Notes under the pieces: model-generated
The model's input: only the letters and a program-made list of their open reading frames with translations
What the model was told of the DNA's origin: nothing
The model's database searches: none
Shown: one piece after another, positions 22,481 through 27,598 of the stretch
Layout of the letters: every line of letters starts with the position of its first letter
Numbering within the stretch: the stretch's first letter is position 1
Position numbers and translations under genes: made by a program
Virus record (IMG/VR): IMGVR_UViG_3300021425_000096
Coordinates: 1 to 34,401 of that record
Source of the DNA: a virus
Direction: 5' to 3' (one strand)
Length of the DNA stretch: 34,401 bases

Positions 22481-23128
22481 ATGCAAATTTTTCTAGACAC
22501 TGCTAACTACCATGAGATCGCTGAGCGTTATGCGACTGGTCTTGTCTCTGGTATCACGACCAATCCTACACTAGTTCGTAAGTCTGGTGTAAATTACTTT
22601 GATTTCATTAGCACTCTCTCAAGAGATTTTGCTTTCGAGAGTATCTCTGCAGAGGTTGATGGAAAAACTGCTGATGAGATGCTGGATAATGCCAAACAGT
22701 ATATTGCTATTGGCAGTGAAGTTACCATCAAACTCCCCCTCACTAAAGAGGGTCTTATCGCATGTAAGATCCTCTCTGATGAGGGAGTAAAAACAAATGT
22801 CACACTCTGTTTCTCTGCCTCTCAGGCAGTGATGACCGCTTTGGCAGGTGCCACATACATCTCTCCTTTTGTGGGACGTATGAATGACAACTCTTTTAGT
22901 GGTGTCGAACTTGTACGTGCTATTGGTGGTCTATATAGTGCCAAGCGAGTGGAGACTAAGGTTCTTGCCGCTAGTCTTCGTGATGTACATCACGTCTCTC
23001 GCTGTCTCTTGTATGGCGCAGATGTAGTTACACTACCTACTGCAGTATTTGACAAGATGTACAATCATGTCCTGACTGATGCAGGACTTGCAATTTTCGA
23101 GAAAGATTTTAAAGAGATTAATGGTTGA
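22481..23128 (+). CDS. talC: TalC transaldolase
   Basis: 215 aa, short (TalC/fructose-6-phosphate-aldolase-like) transaldolase. IFLDTANYHEI (D6), SGITTNPTLVRKSG (N28) and EVTIKLPLT with the Schiff-base lysine K84 are present, as is TNVTLCFSASQA. In cyanophages TalC moves carbon through the pentose phosphate pathway, which favours NADPH and ribose for nucleotide synthesis, fitting the nrdAB genes here. Only 2 nt separate it from the upstream oxygenase stop, and it overlaps the antitoxin-like gene by 8 nt. Confidence 0.95.
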   Translation: MQIFLDTANYHEIAERYATGLVSGITTNPTLVRKSGVNYFDFISTLSRDFAFESISAEVDGKTADEMLDNAKQYIAIGSEVTIKLPLTKEGLIACKILSDEGVKTNVTLCFSASQAVMTALAGATYISPFVGRMNDNSFSGVELVRAIGGLYSAKRVETKVLAASLRDVHHVSRCLLYGADVVTLPTAVFDKMYNHVLTDAGLAIFEKDFKEING

Positions 23129-23327
23129 AGTTCCGTTTGCTGAGTTTGAAAAAGACTTCGATGCATACATGGATCGCATCGAAGCAGGTGAATCATTCTT
23201 GATTCGCCAACCAGATGGCAGGGCAGTGGTTGCTGTCCCTGCTGGTGAGTATGAAGCAGCAGCAACTGCTGTTGCTGAGGTTGATGAGTTGTCTCAAATG
23301 TATTCAGATCATGAAGAAGGTTCTTAA
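23121..23327 (+). CDS. Phd/YefM-like antitoxin homologue
   Basis: 68 aa. VPFAEFEKDFDAYMDRIEAG then ESFLIRQPDGRAVVAVPAGEY follows the Phd/YefM pattern: N-terminal DNA-binding and dimerisation half, then the strand pair ending in a PxxEY turn. Such proteins neutralise Doc or YoeB/RelE-type toxins and repress their own operons. No toxin of those families is visible next to it. ATG 23121 overlaps talC by 8 nt; an upstream TTG start is unlikely. It is followed by an overlapping membrane protein. Confidence 0.78.
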   Translation: MVEVPFAEFEKDFDAYMDRIEAGESFLIRQPDGRAVVAVPAGEYEAAATAVAEVDELSQMYSDHEEGS

Positions 23328-23655
23328 TTTACTTGCTAAGATACCAGAGAGGCATTATTGGCCTATCTTTGTTATCTTGTCTCTCTACTTCATCGTCCCG
23401 ATGAGTGAGATTACAGTAACATTAGGTGCTATTCTCTACTTCAAGTTCGAGAATAAAGTTAGACCAGTTATTGGAAGACTAACAAACAGACTGCCTGACT
23501 GGTTAAAGTATGGTGGTAGTATTCTTTTCTTCCTAGTGATGATTGATGATACTATCTTCTACTTTGCTCTGATTGCCATGGCATTCTGGTGCTCACGCCA
23601 GTTGCCAAAGCACAGAGACCATGCTACAATTGACAAGTCAGCAACAGACCTATGA
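23311..23655 (+). CDS. Small integral membrane protein
   Basis: 114 aa. Starting at ATG 23311, two hydrophobic regions are clear: HYWPIFVILSLYFIVPMSEI continuing to about residue 45 (may be one or two spans), and SILFFLVMIDDTIFYFALIA continuing to about 92, separated by a basic amphipathic stretch (KFENKVRPVIGRLTNRLPDW). It overlaps the antitoxin-like gene by 17 nt and the next gene by 4 nt. Holin-like, toxin-like or metabolic membrane roles are all conceivable; nothing decides among them. Confidence 0.72.
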   Translation: MKKVLNLLAKIPERHYWPIFVILSLYFIVPMSEITVTLGAILYFKFENKVRPVIGRLTNRLPDWLKYGGSILFFLVMIDDTIFYFALIAMAFWCSRQLPKHRDHATIDKSATDL

Positions 23656-23888
23656 AACCCACCGTCATTTTCGATCAAGGACCGTACCGCTTCGTGCAGT
23701 GTGGCACCCTAGAAACCAACGGTATGCCAGATTATCGCATCCAAAAGTTTCACGAATGGAAAAAGCGATACTTTGACATGTACCTGCTTGACAACCAAAT
23801 GCAACTAGACACTTGCCTTGAGGATCCAGAATATACCAAGTGGTTAGATCCTGATCCTGAGGTCGGTGCCTATCGTAAATACAACTGA
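23652..23888 (+). CDS. Small hypothetical protein
   Basis: 78 aa, unknown. MKPTVIFDQGPYRFVQCGTL begins a beta-rich half, followed by KFHEWKKRYFDMYLLDNQMQ and an acidic, aromatic end (WLDPDPEVGAYRKYN). ATG overlaps the membrane-protein stop by 4 nt, indicating translational coupling. No metal-binding pattern or membrane segment. Confidence 0.7.
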   Translation: MKPTVIFDQGPYRFVQCGTLETNGMPDYRIQKFHEWKKRYFDMYLLDNQMQLDTCLEDPEYTKWLDPDPEVGAYRKYN

Positions 23889-23895
23889 GGTTACT

Positions 23896-24252
23896 ATGAG
23901 CGTCAAATCACAAGTCCAAGCTGCTGAAGAAGCACTCCGTCAGGCATTGATCAACGCTCTTGCTGAGGGCGATGAAGATCATTTGTCTGAATTATTCACT
24001 GAGTATCAACACATCAGTGATCTGAACAAAAAAGTTCAGGACAAAATTACTTTTGATCCTAACTTTAGTTTCACGTTGTCATCTGAATATCTAGATAGTG
24101 GTATTACTATTGGCAATAGTAAAATTGGTGGTGATCTAGATTCTATGGATGATATTGTATTCGCTGCACAACCAGTGCCTATGCCTGGTGCTTTTGGTGA
24201 AGATGTCATCTCATTTGATGACTACAAGAGTCAGGAGCATCGCCCTGACTAG
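23896..24252 (+). CDS. Hypothetical acidic protein
   Basis: 118 aa. ATG 23896 has CTGAGG six nt upstream, so the 10-codon upstream extension is not needed. The N-terminal half is a predicted long helix (VQAAEEALRQALINALAEGD ... LNKKVQDKI); the C-terminal half is glycine- and aspartate-rich and contains PVPMPGAFGEDVISFDDY. Unknown function. It is the last protein gene before the hairpin array. Confidence 0.7.
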   Translation: MSVKSQVQAAEEALRQALINALAEGDEDHLSELFTEYQHISDLNKKVQDKITFDPNFSFTLSSEYLDSGITIGNSKIGGDLDSMDDIVFAAQPVPMPGAFGEDVISFDDYKSQEHRPD

Positions 24253-24270
24253 TCTCGGTATGACTATAAA

Positions 24271-24492
24271 CTAGCCCTGGTCGGGATGGGTTTCACGACC
24301 CCTCGGGTTTCCAGTTTTTCCATAAAAACTGGTGGTGCGGATGGGACTCTCTCCCGCCTGGTTTCTTGCTTCCAGTCAAAGAGCAAGTGGTGGATCCAAA
24401 TGACCCCTTCCGTGTGGCTGATTTCCTGTTTTGCAGTTAAACTAAAACAGGTGGCGTGCATGTGTCCATGGGGATTGACCTCCCCATTTTCT
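24271..24492. ncRNA. Array of hairpins, candidate structured RNA
   Basis: A roughly 220-nt stretch with no convincing protein gene and visibly more G+C than its neighbours. Perfect or near-perfect stems: CCAGTTTTT/AAAAACTGG (24311-24332), CTTGCT/AGCAAG (24365-24387), CCTGTTTT/AAAACAGG (24425-24451), and ATGGGG/CCCCAT (24468-24487), plus shorter GGG/CCC stems at 24288-24300 and 24343-24355. The three T-rich or TTGCT stems are each preceded by TTTC and followed by GTGG, so the array reads as repeats of one module with covarying stems. It ends 5 nt before tRNA-Gly. Strand and function cannot be decided. Confidence 0.65.
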
Positions 24493-24564
24493 GCGGGTGT
24501 AGTTCAGCGGTAGAACGCTATCCTTCCAAGTTAGATGTCGTCGGTTCGATTCCGATCGCCCGCT
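24493..24564 (+). tRNA. tRNA-Gly (UCC)
   Basis: Acceptor GCGGGTG pairs with CGCCCGC (one G-T). D-stem GTTC/GAAC; anticodon loop CTTCCAA gives TCC; the anticodon stem CTATC/GTTAG has one mismatch; T-arm CGGTTCGATTCCG. Separated from the other five tRNAs by 2.5 kb. I saw no sigma-70 promoter of its own. Confidence 0.94.
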
Positions 24565-24572
24565 TACCATTT

Positions 24573-24580
24573 TATAAATA
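24573..24580 (+). promoter_or_regulatory. Late promoter TATAAATA
   Basis: Exact T4 late consensus, 36 nt before ATG 24617. Predicted start near 24586. Confidence 0.8.
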
Positions 24581-24616
24581 CTTCTAGCTCAGAGAACTGT
24601 CTTCAGGACTAGAAGT
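24580..24616 (+). promoter_or_regulatory. Hairpin abutting the fibre-gene start codon
   Basis: ACTTCTAG (24580-24587) pairs perfectly with CTAGAAGT (24609-24616), the latter directly before ATG 24617; the Shine-Dalgarno CAGGA (24604-24608) sits in the loop. RNA started at about 24586 lacks most of the 5' arm, so only read-through RNA would fold. Confidence 0.55.
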
Positions 24617-27598
24617 ATGTCAAAGATTCTTGCGAACCAAATCGCTAATTATGGAGACGATTCTCCAATTGAAATTAAAGAAGGATTGAATATTCCTGTT
24701 GGCAAACCACTACAGGCAGCAGGAAATACTGGATCTTCTGGTCAAGTTCTCGCATCAACTGGTTCTTCTGTTGAGTGGATTACTCCTTTCAGTGGTAGTT
24801 ATAGTGATCTAACAAATCAACCAACGATCCCACCAGCACAGGTAAATTCTGATTGGAATGCTGTTGGAACTGTCGCTGAAATCCTTAACAAACCAGTTAT
24901 TCCAGCACAATCGAGCGTAACTCTTACTGCTCCTGGCAATTCTACTCTCACATATAATAGTGTGAATGGCGTATTCACATTCACACCACCAGATCTCTCT
25001 GCTTATTTAACATCATACTCGGAAACTGACCCTATTTTCCTAGCATCACCTGCCTATCAAATTACCAATCAAAATAGAACTGATTGGAGTGCAGCATATT
25101 CTTGGGGCAACCATGCTAATGCTGGGTATCTCACATCATACACAGAAACTGACCCTATATTCTCTGCTTCTGTTGCTGCTGGCATTTCTGCTCAGCAAGT
25201 AACCAACTGGAATAATGCTTATGGTTGGGGCAATCATGCTTCTCAAGGATACCTTACATCATATACAGAAACTGATCCTATTTTCCAAGCATCAGCAGCT
25301 GCTGGTGTAACCACTCAGTTAGTATCTAACTGGAACACAGCATACACTTGGGGTGATCATGGACAAGCAGGATATTTAACAGATCTTTCAGCATCATCTA
25401 TTACTGGACTAAGTGATGTTGCTGTTTCTGGTGCTACATCTGGACAAATTCTTGAATATAATGGCGCTAACTGGGTAAATGTTACTCCAGCTTACTTAAC
25501 TACTTACACAGAAACTGACACTCTTGCTACTGTAACTGCTAGAGGTGCATCAACTAGCACAGAATGTACATTCTTGAACTTGATTGTTAGTGGAAACTTA
25601 ACTGTTCTTGGTACAACCACTACTAATAATGTTGCGACCCTGAATGTCACTAACAATGAGGTTGTTCTTAATGATGGGCAAGCATCTGGTGCATTGGATG
25701 CAATTATCAAGGTTGATAGAGGATCAGATCCTGATTCATCTTTGCGTTGGAATGAAGTTGCTGACATCTGGCAATTCACTAATGATGGAACTAATTACTA
25801 TCCCCTACCAACAGCATTATCTGACCTCACAAATGATGCTGGTTATCTAACAACGGTTGGTGGAATTGATAGTTTTACTGATGTTAGTATTAGTAACCCT
25901 GTTAATGATGAAGTTCTGAAATACAATGGCAGTCAGTGGGTCAATTCTCCCACTACTCTAACTGCTAAAGCTGCTATCTCAGATGCTGCTCCAACAAATC
26001 CATCACCAGGAGACATGTGGTGGAAGTCTGATGAAGGCACCATGAAGATATGGTACGATGATGGCAATTCATCGCAGTGGGTTGATGCTTCACCTGTTGG
26101 AGATCCATTTGAGAACGTATATGCTAGCGTAGCATTCTTCCCTGGAGCAAATGTCAATGAGGGTGGTTTCGCATACTCTCAGGCGACTGGTGCGATGTAC
26201 TATTCCAACGCTGTAAGTTGGACCAGTCAGAGACTTGTTACTACAAACAACTCAAACACTTCAGACTTCGCTACACTCCTTGCTAACACTCAGCTAACAT
26301 ATTCTATCAGTGCTATTGATGACATTGGAGGAAATAATAGTAAGAAAACTATTAGACTGTCTGATTCTCAGGGTGTTACTAGTGATGTAACACTTGTAGC
26401 AGGAACTGGACTATCAATTCTAAAGTCTAATGATGAAATCCAATTCACTAACGAGGTAACTGATACTACATATAGCATTTCTTCACAACCTGGAGCTGGT
26501 TCTAATGCTACATTTAGACTGACTGATAGCGAAGGTGTCCTAGATGAGATTACATTTGCTGGTGCTGATGGTCTGACTGTAGAGAACACAGACGCTAACA
26601 CAATTACATTCAGAGCACCTGATATTTCTGCTCAATTTTACACTGACGAGAGAGCACAGGATGCTGTCGCTACGATGTTTGCTAATGGCACACATACAAA
26701 CATCTCATTTGTATATGATGATAATAACAATGCCATCAGTGCTACAGCACTTGGCGGTGGAGGTGGTGGTGGTGGAACCACTTATGATCTACTAGGATCA
26801 AACACCACCAGCAACAATGCTATTATTACTCTTCGTGATGCTCTCGGAAATGATGATAATATTGAGGTTACTGGTAGTGGTGGTACAACAGTAACATGGG
26901 ATGGTGTTAATAGTAGAATTACTCTTGGTAGTACAGCACCAGTAAATGCTGACTGGAATGCTACATCTGGACTGGCAGAAATTCTTAACAAACCAACTAT
27001 TCCACCAGCATATACTCTTCCTATTGCTTCGCCTACTGTTCTTGGTGGATTCAAGGTTGGTGCTAACCTTAGTATAGATGCTAATGGTGTCCTTGATGCT
27101 AACCCTGGATCATATACACTACCAATAGCAGATGCTACTACCCTTGGTGGTATCAAAGTTGGTTCTGGTCTTTCTATTGATGGTAACGGTGTTCTAACTG
27201 CCACTGGTGGTTCTACTGTTCCATCAATTCAAGATCTCTCTGGAACTACAGTATCAATAGGTGCTGATGTGACCACAGATCTAAATATTACAGGTTACAA
27301 AGCCTATTCGTTATTCAAGATTACCACTGATGCAGAAGCATGGGTTAGAATTTATGTAGATGATGCGTCAAGAGATGCTGATGCTACGAGAAGTGAGGGA
27401 GAAGACCCTACCCCAGGTAGCGGTGTTATTTCTGAAGTGAGAACATCTGGAGCACAATCGGTCTTAATCTCTCCTGGTATCATGGGATTCAATAACGATA
27501 ATCCAAGAACAGATATCATTTATATGTCAGTCACTAATAGAAGTGGCGCAGCAACCACAATCACAGTCACTCTAACAGCACTACAGATAGGAGAATAA
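24617..27598 (+). CDS. Tail-fibre-like virion protein with 41-residue repeats
   Basis: 993 aa. The N-terminus (MSKILANQIANYGDDSPIEI) is typical of phage fibre/structural proteins. Three tandem 41-residue repeats begin at residue 130, each YLTSYxETDPIF...NW...AYxWGxH...G. A module PSPGDMWWKSDEGTMKIWYD...QWVDASP follows near 457, then TYSISSQPGAGSN-type repeats, an eight-glycine hinge near residue 713, and paired YTLPIA...LGG(F/I)KVG...L repeats close to the C-terminus. Likely a trimeric fibre or adhesin contacting the host surface. Several modules are shared with the gene at 32894. Which fibre it is (long or short) cannot be told. Confidence 0.85.
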   Translation: MSKILANQIANYGDDSPIEIKEGLNIPVGKPLQAAGNTGSSGQVLASTGSSVEWITPFSGSYSDLTNQPTIPPAQVNSDWNAVGTVAEILNKPVIPAQSSVTLTAPGNSTLTYNSVNGVFTFTPPDLSAYLTSYSETDPIFLASPAYQITNQNRTDWSAAYSWGNHANAGYLTSYTETDPIFSASVAAGISAQQVTNWNNAYGWGNHASQGYLTSYTETDPIFQASAAAGVTTQLVSNWNTAYTWGDHGQAGYLTDLSASSITGLSDVAVSGATSGQILEYNGANWVNVTPAYLTTYTETDTLATVTARGASTSTECTFLNLIVSGNLTVLGTTTTNNVATLNVTNNEVVLNDGQASGALDAIIKVDRGSDPDSSLRWNEVADIWQFTNDGTNYYPLPTALSDLTNDAGYLTTVGGIDSFTDVSISNPVNDEVLKYNGSQWVNSPTTLTAKAAISDAAPTNPSPGDMWWKSDEGTMKIWYDDGNSSQWVDASPVGDPFENVYASVAFFPGANVNEGGFAYSQATGAMYYSNAVSWTSQRLVTTNNSNTSDFATLLANTQLTYSISAIDDIGGNNSKKTIRLSDSQGVTSDVTLVAGTGLSILKSNDEIQFTNEVTDTTYSISSQPGAGSNATFRLTDSEGVLDEITFAGADGLTVENTDANTITFRAPDISAQFYTDERAQDAVATMFANGTHTNISFVYDDNNNAISATALGGGGGGGGTTYDLLGSNTTSNNAIITLRDALGNDDNIEVTGSGGTTVTWDGVNSRITLGSTAPVNADWNATSGLAEILNKPTIPPAYTLPIASPTVLGGFKVGANLSIDANGVLDANPGSYTLPIADATTLGGIKVGSGLSIDGNGVLTATGGSTVPSIQDLSGTTVSIGADVTTDLNITGYKAYSLFKITTDAEAWVRIYVDDASRDADATRSEGEDPTPGSGVISEVRTSGAQSVLISPGIMGFNNDNPRTDIIYMSVTNRSGAATTITVTLTALQIGE
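25004..25372 (+). repeat. Three tandem 123-nt repeats in the fibre gene
   Basis: Units 25004-25126, 25127-25249 and 25250-25372 each encode 41 residues with the fixed frame YLTSY-ETDP-NW-AY-WG-H-G. Related single units occur in the gene at 32894 (from about 32999 and 33239). Diverged at DNA level, so they are old. Confidence 0.85.

Follow-up and report, generated by a model that had tools for sequence, protein, structure and literature searches.

The window analysed here (34,401 nt, positions 1 to 34,401 of IMG/VR record IMGVR_UViG_3300021425_000096) has its best phage matches among Kyanoviridae/Synechococcus phages, and the genomes most similar to it in DNA are those of T4-like Synechococcus phages. 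A cluster of small genes (talC, Phd-like antitoxin, PHROG 1248, PHROG 481, and PHROG 604) is followed by an array of structured RNA units, a tRNA-Gly gene, and a tail-fibre ORF beginning at 24617. Between the tRNA and this ORF lies TATAAATA (24573–24580), which we take to be a T4-type late-promoter motif and which is kept in relatives; an inverted repeat (ACTTCTAG..CTAGAAGT, 24579–24616) sits right before the tail-fibre start codon and is also kept in relatives that have the late-promoter motif. Each unit of the array takes its name from the linker that follows it, the four linkers being a (TCGGG..), b (TGGAG../TGGATCC..), c (TGCGGATGGG..), and d (CGAGCC/CGTGCATG). The features of the locus are as follows.

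22481–23128: talC (transaldolase)
23079–23327: Phd-like antitoxin
23215–23655: PHROG 1248
23652–23888, + strand: PHROG 481 gene (T4-GC 250), by PHROG assignment
23866–24252, + strand: PHROG 604 gene (ORF and PHROG assignment), stop codon TAG touching unit 1
24251–24280, + strand: unit 1, form II pseudoknot (model R1 match at 24251–24286, 47.6 bits)
24251–24254/24262–24265, + strand: P1 stem of unit 1 (form II model)
G24257-C24277, G24258-C24276, U24259-A24273, C24256-G24274, + strand: loop–tail contacts of unit 1 (form II covariation)
24281–24304, + strand: linker a (TCGGGATGGG..CGACCCCTC), a GC hairpin (alignment A4; RNAalifold hairpin)
24303–24401, + strand: match to wcaG RNA (RF01761), comprising units 2 and 3 and the intervening linker c (E 4.2e-17)
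24306–24335, + strand: unit 2, form I, ending GTGG, with covarying stem 24311–24319/24324–24332 (R2 match at 24306–24337, 18.7 bits)
24336–24358, + strand: linker c (TGCGGATGGG..CCCGCC), a GC hairpin and the wcaG invariant core (alignment A4)
24358–24390, + strand: unit 3, form I pseudoknot, with stem 24365–24371/24381–24387 (R2, 62.2 bits)
24358–24361 with 24372–24375, + strand: pseudoknot pairing of unit 3, CUGG with CCAG
24391–24417, + strand: linker b (TGGATCCAAATGACCCC..), a linker kind placed elsewhere in other arrays (alignment A4)
24418–24454, + strand: unit 4, form I pseudoknot outside the Rfam model (R2, 23.4 bits, E 6e-5)
24418–24420 with 24434–24436, + strand: pairing of unit 4, CUG with CAG (relatives GTTG:CAAC, GATG:CATC, GCTG:CAG), with stem 24425–24432/24444–24451
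24455–24467, + strand: linker d, CGTGCATGTGTCC, with invariant start (alignment)
24468–24490, + strand: P4, terminator-like hairpin ATGGGGA/TCCCCAT with a short T-run (alignment, folding)
24493–24564, + strand: tRNA-Gly (TCC), a neighbour outside the RNA (ARAGORN, Rfam)

The original prediction described 24271–24492 as an array of hairpins in a shared TTTC-stem-GTGG frame, unlike its surroundings in base composition and devoid of a believable protein gene, and in these respects it was borne out. Exactly three such frames with a stem of at least 6 bp occur in the whole 34-kb window (mean of 0.11 in order-1 Markov copies), all inside 24271–24492, with stems at 24311–24319/24324–24332, 24365–24371/24381–24387, and 24425–24432/24444–24451; the array has a GC content of 51.8% compared with 41.3% for the window. 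Two overlapping ORFs of 65–75 aa in the array region are without support as genes, and a coding explanation was rejected because the gaps in an alignment of 12 sequences (1, 2, 3, and 4 nt) disrupt every frame; no reading frame is conserved across the array in that alignment. The predicted extent holds for the array but not for its start, which lies further upstream, on the stop codon of the preceding ORF (24250–24252), where unit 1 is a pseudoknot of the other form. Folding of both strands, which had been proposed as a check, gave a plus-strand energy not beyond that of shuffled sequences (z of −0.63; −2.09 for the minus strand). As the plus-strand fold is no stabler than shuffled sequence, energy by itself proves nothing and was rejected as sole evidence; the evidence is covariation.

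In form I units (N4-UUUC-stem-loop-stem-GUGG), the N4 preceding UUUC pairs with the loop. For unit 3 most relatives pair CUGG with CCAG at this place; the remainder have CAGG:CCUG, CCAG:CUGG, CCUG:CAGG, or CUAG:CUAG. Across 35 distinct form I sequences 385 of 385 cells are paired, with 72 double changes compared with 16.6 in shuffles, and sliding the partners abolishes the pairing; columns 3–6/17–20 are 100% paired, with double changes at both variable pairs. These sequences were picked by the stem rather than by the pseudoknot, so that the pseudoknot pairs constitute an independent test. Form II has a 4-bp stem, a 7-nt loop, and an A-rich tail, with loop–tail covariation at 6–24, 8–26, and 9–23 of alignment A2; in 42 distinct relatives 98.5% of cells are paired (0 of 500 shuffles as good), the loop–tail pairs are individually 96–100% paired, and the 6–24 contact crosses the other loop–tail contacts, which makes the detailed form II topology provisional. 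In both forms loop bases pair outside their own stem and covary, as in H-type pseudoknots, and both share a conserved fold ending in TGG with strong compensatory change. In S-PM2 the unit preceding linker c is of form II, whereas in other arrays it is of form I, which indicates that the two forms are interchangeable. Covariation in homologues, sought as a check and found for stems and pseudoknots alike, upholds the earlier view of a repeated structured RNA module in which pairing and flanks are kept while stems vary.

The statement that the array resembles no RNA with a name was wrong. The segment 24303–24401 matches Rfam wcaG RNA (RF01761) over the full length of the model (1–98) at 95.1 bits, above the gathering threshold of 42 bits, with the invariant core GTGGTGCGGATGGG..CCCGCCTGGTTTC; a second wcaG match, on the third frame (unit 4), reaches 17.2 bits, below threshold. 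Occurrence agrees as well, since wcaG RNA is known from T4-like cyanophages and marine samples, the same phage group. The Rfam model covers two of the four units, and its structure line has three nested hairpins and no pseudoknots. Covariance models cannot hold pseudoknots, and the published wcaG drawing, as far as the available text of that paper goes, may already show them; for the stretch covered by Rfam, the form I pseudoknot may therefore already be known. Compared with Rfam wcaG, the window has an additional form II unit before, an additional form I unit after, and a 3′-end rather than a 5′-UTR context. The accessible portions of the wcaG literature mention neither a fourth unit nor a form II unit, and neither the rule of four linkers nor a 3′ context. 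wcaG is a known but unexplained RNA, and by sequence comparison the longer four-unit RNA around it contains wcaG as its half, namely the c-d half of the four-unit element.

Relatives were collected with three IMG/VR pattern scans (two for wcaG and one for the upstream unit) that gave at least 120 matches each. The loose wcaG pattern yielded some chance matches inside protein genes, which were removed by demanding both stems; 137 distinct wcaG loci were kept among the matches listed, and as IMG/VR contigs are redundant and related, the counts are not those of independent events. The strict core pattern had no match in a set of 84,980 bacterial and archaeal species, represented by one genome apiece, which suggests a phage-borne element, although an exact pattern would miss a diverged host copy.

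Exactly four units are present in 116 of the 145 arrays among the matches listed, and all 116 have a, b, c, and d once each. The arrays listed are ordered a-b-c-d, b-a-c-d, or a-c-b-d, linker b being mobile, and the window has a-c-b-d; four units were also found in S-CAM1 and DSL-LC03. The linker search was limited to labels a–d with c required and could detect repeats such as a-a-c-d, of which there were none among the 145 listed arrays. A genome-wide dispersed repeat was rejected, since all 13 of the 13 phage records tested have a single array.

In 65 of the 145 arrays among the matches listed, units are separated by small genes, and the lone unit 1 often ends ~17 nt before the ATG of the inserted gene. 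These insertions, together with the permuted unit order, would fit DNA-level recombination seams or cassette boundaries for swapping genes and tRNAs, with RNA structure incidental. We consider this very improbable, given that loop–tail pseudoknot covariation is a prediction of RNA function, and that there is one array per genome and no recombinase tied to it; the packaging or recombination site proposed earlier has no direct support, although genes are inserted between units. Many arrays, including L093 (2220–2552), have a gene for a membrane-like protein of 75–99 aa (MSKTDLLRWIGNILL..) between unit 1 and the rest, the last codons of which supply half of a unit's stem. In DSL-LC03 (L257, 2521), the annotated start of GDP-mannose 4,6-dehydratase falls inside the array, and this start codon was probably called too early.

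On the upstream side, 204 of 233 arrays among the matches listed start within −20 to +25 nt of the stop codon of an upstream ORF or the 3′ end of a tRNA, and 119 of 181 listed loci have a member of the PHROG 481 family within 700 nt upstream (median gap 2 nt); the array detection behind these counts missed form I units after GG, and the starts are mostly unit 1, which was detected. Phage synteny of this kind partly reflects shared descent. Sigma-70-like promoters upstream of the array are rarer than in the control (11 compared with 25 of 145, matches listed). The array might be a small phage RNA that acts in trans, or a decoy that captures multiple copies of an RNA-binding protein of the host or the phage, much as the original prediction had allowed: similar units are repeated, at one locus per genome, with a terminator at the end, and some arrays follow tRNA 3′ ends, which indicates that arrays are not tied to mRNAs. 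The scarcity of a promoter of its own, and four linkers that differ in a manner unlike a simple decoy array, make this reading possible but doubtful.

On the downstream side, where terminators, promoters, and ORFs are consensus calls, an intrinsic terminator occurs within 90 nt after the array in 107 of 145 listed loci and before it in none of the 145. A sigma-70-like promoter occurs within 100 nt after the array in 92 of 145 listed loci (control 25 of 145). In 86 of 101 terminator loci among the matches listed, a promoter matching at least 9 of 12 positions has its −35 element in the terminator hairpin and its −10 element after the T-run, compared with ~11 expected when the stretch beyond the T-run is shuffled. 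The distance from −10 to ATG is mostly 18–29 nt in the terminator loci, so that the predicted 5′ UTR of the next gene is short and wcaG lies outside it. The same overlap of terminator and promoter occurs at 24 other places in the fetched loci (e.g., L123 4487, L124 4984, and L138 1308), and a −35 element inside the loop of the preceding terminator seems to be a common separator of transcription units in these phages.

These data bear on the published interpretation, in which wcaG is filed as a cis-regulatory riboswitch candidate and placed in potential 5′ UTRs ahead of exopolysaccharide or high-light genes (Weinberg et al., 2010; PMC2864571, as far as its available text goes). Because the 5′-UTR definition is one of context and not of sequence or structure, membership of the array in the wcaG family stands. 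A metabolite riboswitch or other cis-regulator of the next gene would accord with the GDP-mannose dehydratase/epimerase-family gene that follows the array in 87 of 181 loci (matches listed, by the same array detection), with the likeness of an aptamer followed by a terminator to a transcription-attenuating riboswitch, with the lone unit 1 close before an ATG, and with the position of the RNA before a zinc-ribbon gene in large phages. This reading is weakened by the promoter of the next gene overlapping the terminator, by the array lying tight against the end of the upstream gene, and by the window itself, in which the context of an exopolysaccharide or high-light gene is replaced by tRNA-Gly and then a tail-fibre gene with its own late-promoter motif. 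Moreover, a transcriptional expression platform with anti-terminator pairing was rejected by arm-swap permutation: no such pairing was found, with own arms at −9.54 kcal/mol compared with −9.58 kcal/mol for swapped arms and 41 of 60 permutations doing as well or better. On balance, a riboswitch role appears unlikely.

Since a terminator closes the array in most relatives, the array is probably part of the preceding gene's transcript and not a switch controlling the following gene. Comparison among relatives demonstrates, at the level of sequence, the units, their pairing, the four-unit composition, the position, and the terminator and promoter motifs, and the predicted placement at the 3′ end of the upstream transcript is well supported by the sequences of most cyanophage loci. 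We therefore favor, with a probability of roughly 0.55, a single-copy RNA of T4-like cyanophages in which four tandem pseudoknot units joined by the distinct linkers a, b, c, and d would form the compact structured 3′ end of a conserved small-gene operon (talC, Phd-like antitoxin, PHROG 1248, and PHROG 481), normally closed by an intrinsic terminator, with the next gene starting from its own promoter overlapping that terminator. The array would be transcribed as the 3′ UTR of the talC operon, and we infer its biochemical function to be either that of a stabilizer that stays on the mRNA or that of a small RNA or RNA–protein particle released by processing. That the four linkers differ from one another and form a fixed set suggests a single assembled structure and not four independent roadblocks, although the genes between units in the listed arrays are awkward for a single compact fold. 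Also counting against the 3′-end reading are the close spacing of the lone unit 1 to the inserted gene, the frequent GDP-mannose dehydratase/epimerase-family gene after the array, certain terminator-less arrays that run into a leader with a ribosome-binding site, and the zinc-ribbon gene that follows the large-phage RNA without a T-run.

In the window, P4 is a predicted 7-bp hairpin (24468–24487, −10.5 kcal/mol) followed by only TTTT and then C; T6 follows P4 in L113, L152, L014, and L065, and T6 or more is found in relatives lacking tRNA-Gly. The T-run of this terminator-like hairpin appears to have decayed before tRNA-Gly, so that the tRNA would be made by read-through and cut away from the array RNA by RNase P. 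A processed leader of tRNA-Gly, as earlier suggested, does not hold as a general role and was rejected, because the same array exists where tRNA-Gly is absent (L113, L152, and L014). A tRNA lies within 450 nt downstream in only 13 of the 137 wcaG loci listed, and the impression from S-CREM1 that wcaG sits among stand-alone RNAs everywhere was rejected on this count. An analogy can also be drawn with processive antitermination by put-like RNAs, which modify RNA polymerase to pass an adjacent terminator: the array is a compact structured RNA placed right before a terminator in the 107 of 145 listed loci given above, and tRNA-Gly beyond the decayed terminator needs read-through. In most loci, however, the next gene has its own promoter, making read-through unnecessary, and the parallel with put RNAs is one of resemblance; we regard this role as improbable.

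A similar arrangement (form II-a-form I-b) is present in certain IMG/VR contigs, of which two are close to 300 kb in length, before a gene for a zinc-ribbon-like protein and PhoH, with no T-run between the RNA and the conserved zinc-ribbon gene. The search that identified them gave 15 matches, about half of which are chance matches in GC-rich coding DNA. Rfam wcaG was not found at threshold in these distant large-phage arrays; a sub-threshold wcaG match in L260 (19.3 bits) spans the a-b pair and so suggests a relationship between the pairs a-b and c-d. Four of the contigs encode a permuted tmRNA (RF04321) 1–4 kb upstream of the array on the same strand: L258 185–442 (+), L261 3170–3445 (−), L264 3460–3831 (−), and L265 6363–6619 (−). 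More tentatively, these may be two- to three-unit relatives, accompanied by permuted tmRNA, within a broader family of modular four-pseudoknot RNAs that have a fixed set of four linkers in changeable order and assemble, at the 3′ end of an early operon, into one particle. A further match lies on L254 (WJJK01000092.1), from a MAG labelled Candidatus Altiarchaeales; this contig resembles phage DNA in encoding PhoH, an HNH endonuclease, an ATP-dependent protease, and a Rad52-like protein, and judging from this gene content the label is probably a binning error.

Annotations of cyanophages have taken over wcaG as an RNA that regulates host metabolism or genes for exopolysaccharide (PMC9602691, PMC9964418, PMC10665884, PMC12197685). 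If the array is a 3′-terminal four-pseudoknot RNA of the upstream operon, these annotations point to the wrong gene, and the right experiment would be 3′-end mapping and protein pull-down instead of ligand screening. If the broader family is real, the Rfam entry, the riboswitch label, and the exopolysaccharide link give a partial and misleading view. The outcome is also an extended structure backed by covariance and open to test.

Four pseudoknots in one RNA are likewise a feature of tmRNA, and permuted tmRNA lies upstream of the distant arrays; ARAGORN and Rfam found neither a tRNA-like domain nor a tag reading frame in the window. The upstream pseudoknot domain of tobamovirus 3′ UTRs has H-type pseudoknots in succession, followed by a tRNA-like structure that ends the RNA at its 3′ side; these are RNA viruses of plants, and the likeness is one of layout alone, with a real tRNA following the array in part of the loci. 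The STAXI motif is a pseudoknot in two or three tandem copies (Weinberg et al., 2010; PMC2864571, available text); it shares tandem pseudoknots with the array and differs in its neighboring genes, a comparison made with the text description of STAXI alone. The manA RNA (RF01745), another cyanophage RNA filed as cis-regulatory, had no Rfam match in the window and is found beside wcaG among tRNA genes in S-CREM1. In that phage (L126, 3028–3926), a single cluster has tRNA genes interspersed in alternation with wcaG, manA, and abiF RNAs, and manA directly adjoins tRNA-Leu and tRNA-Asn.
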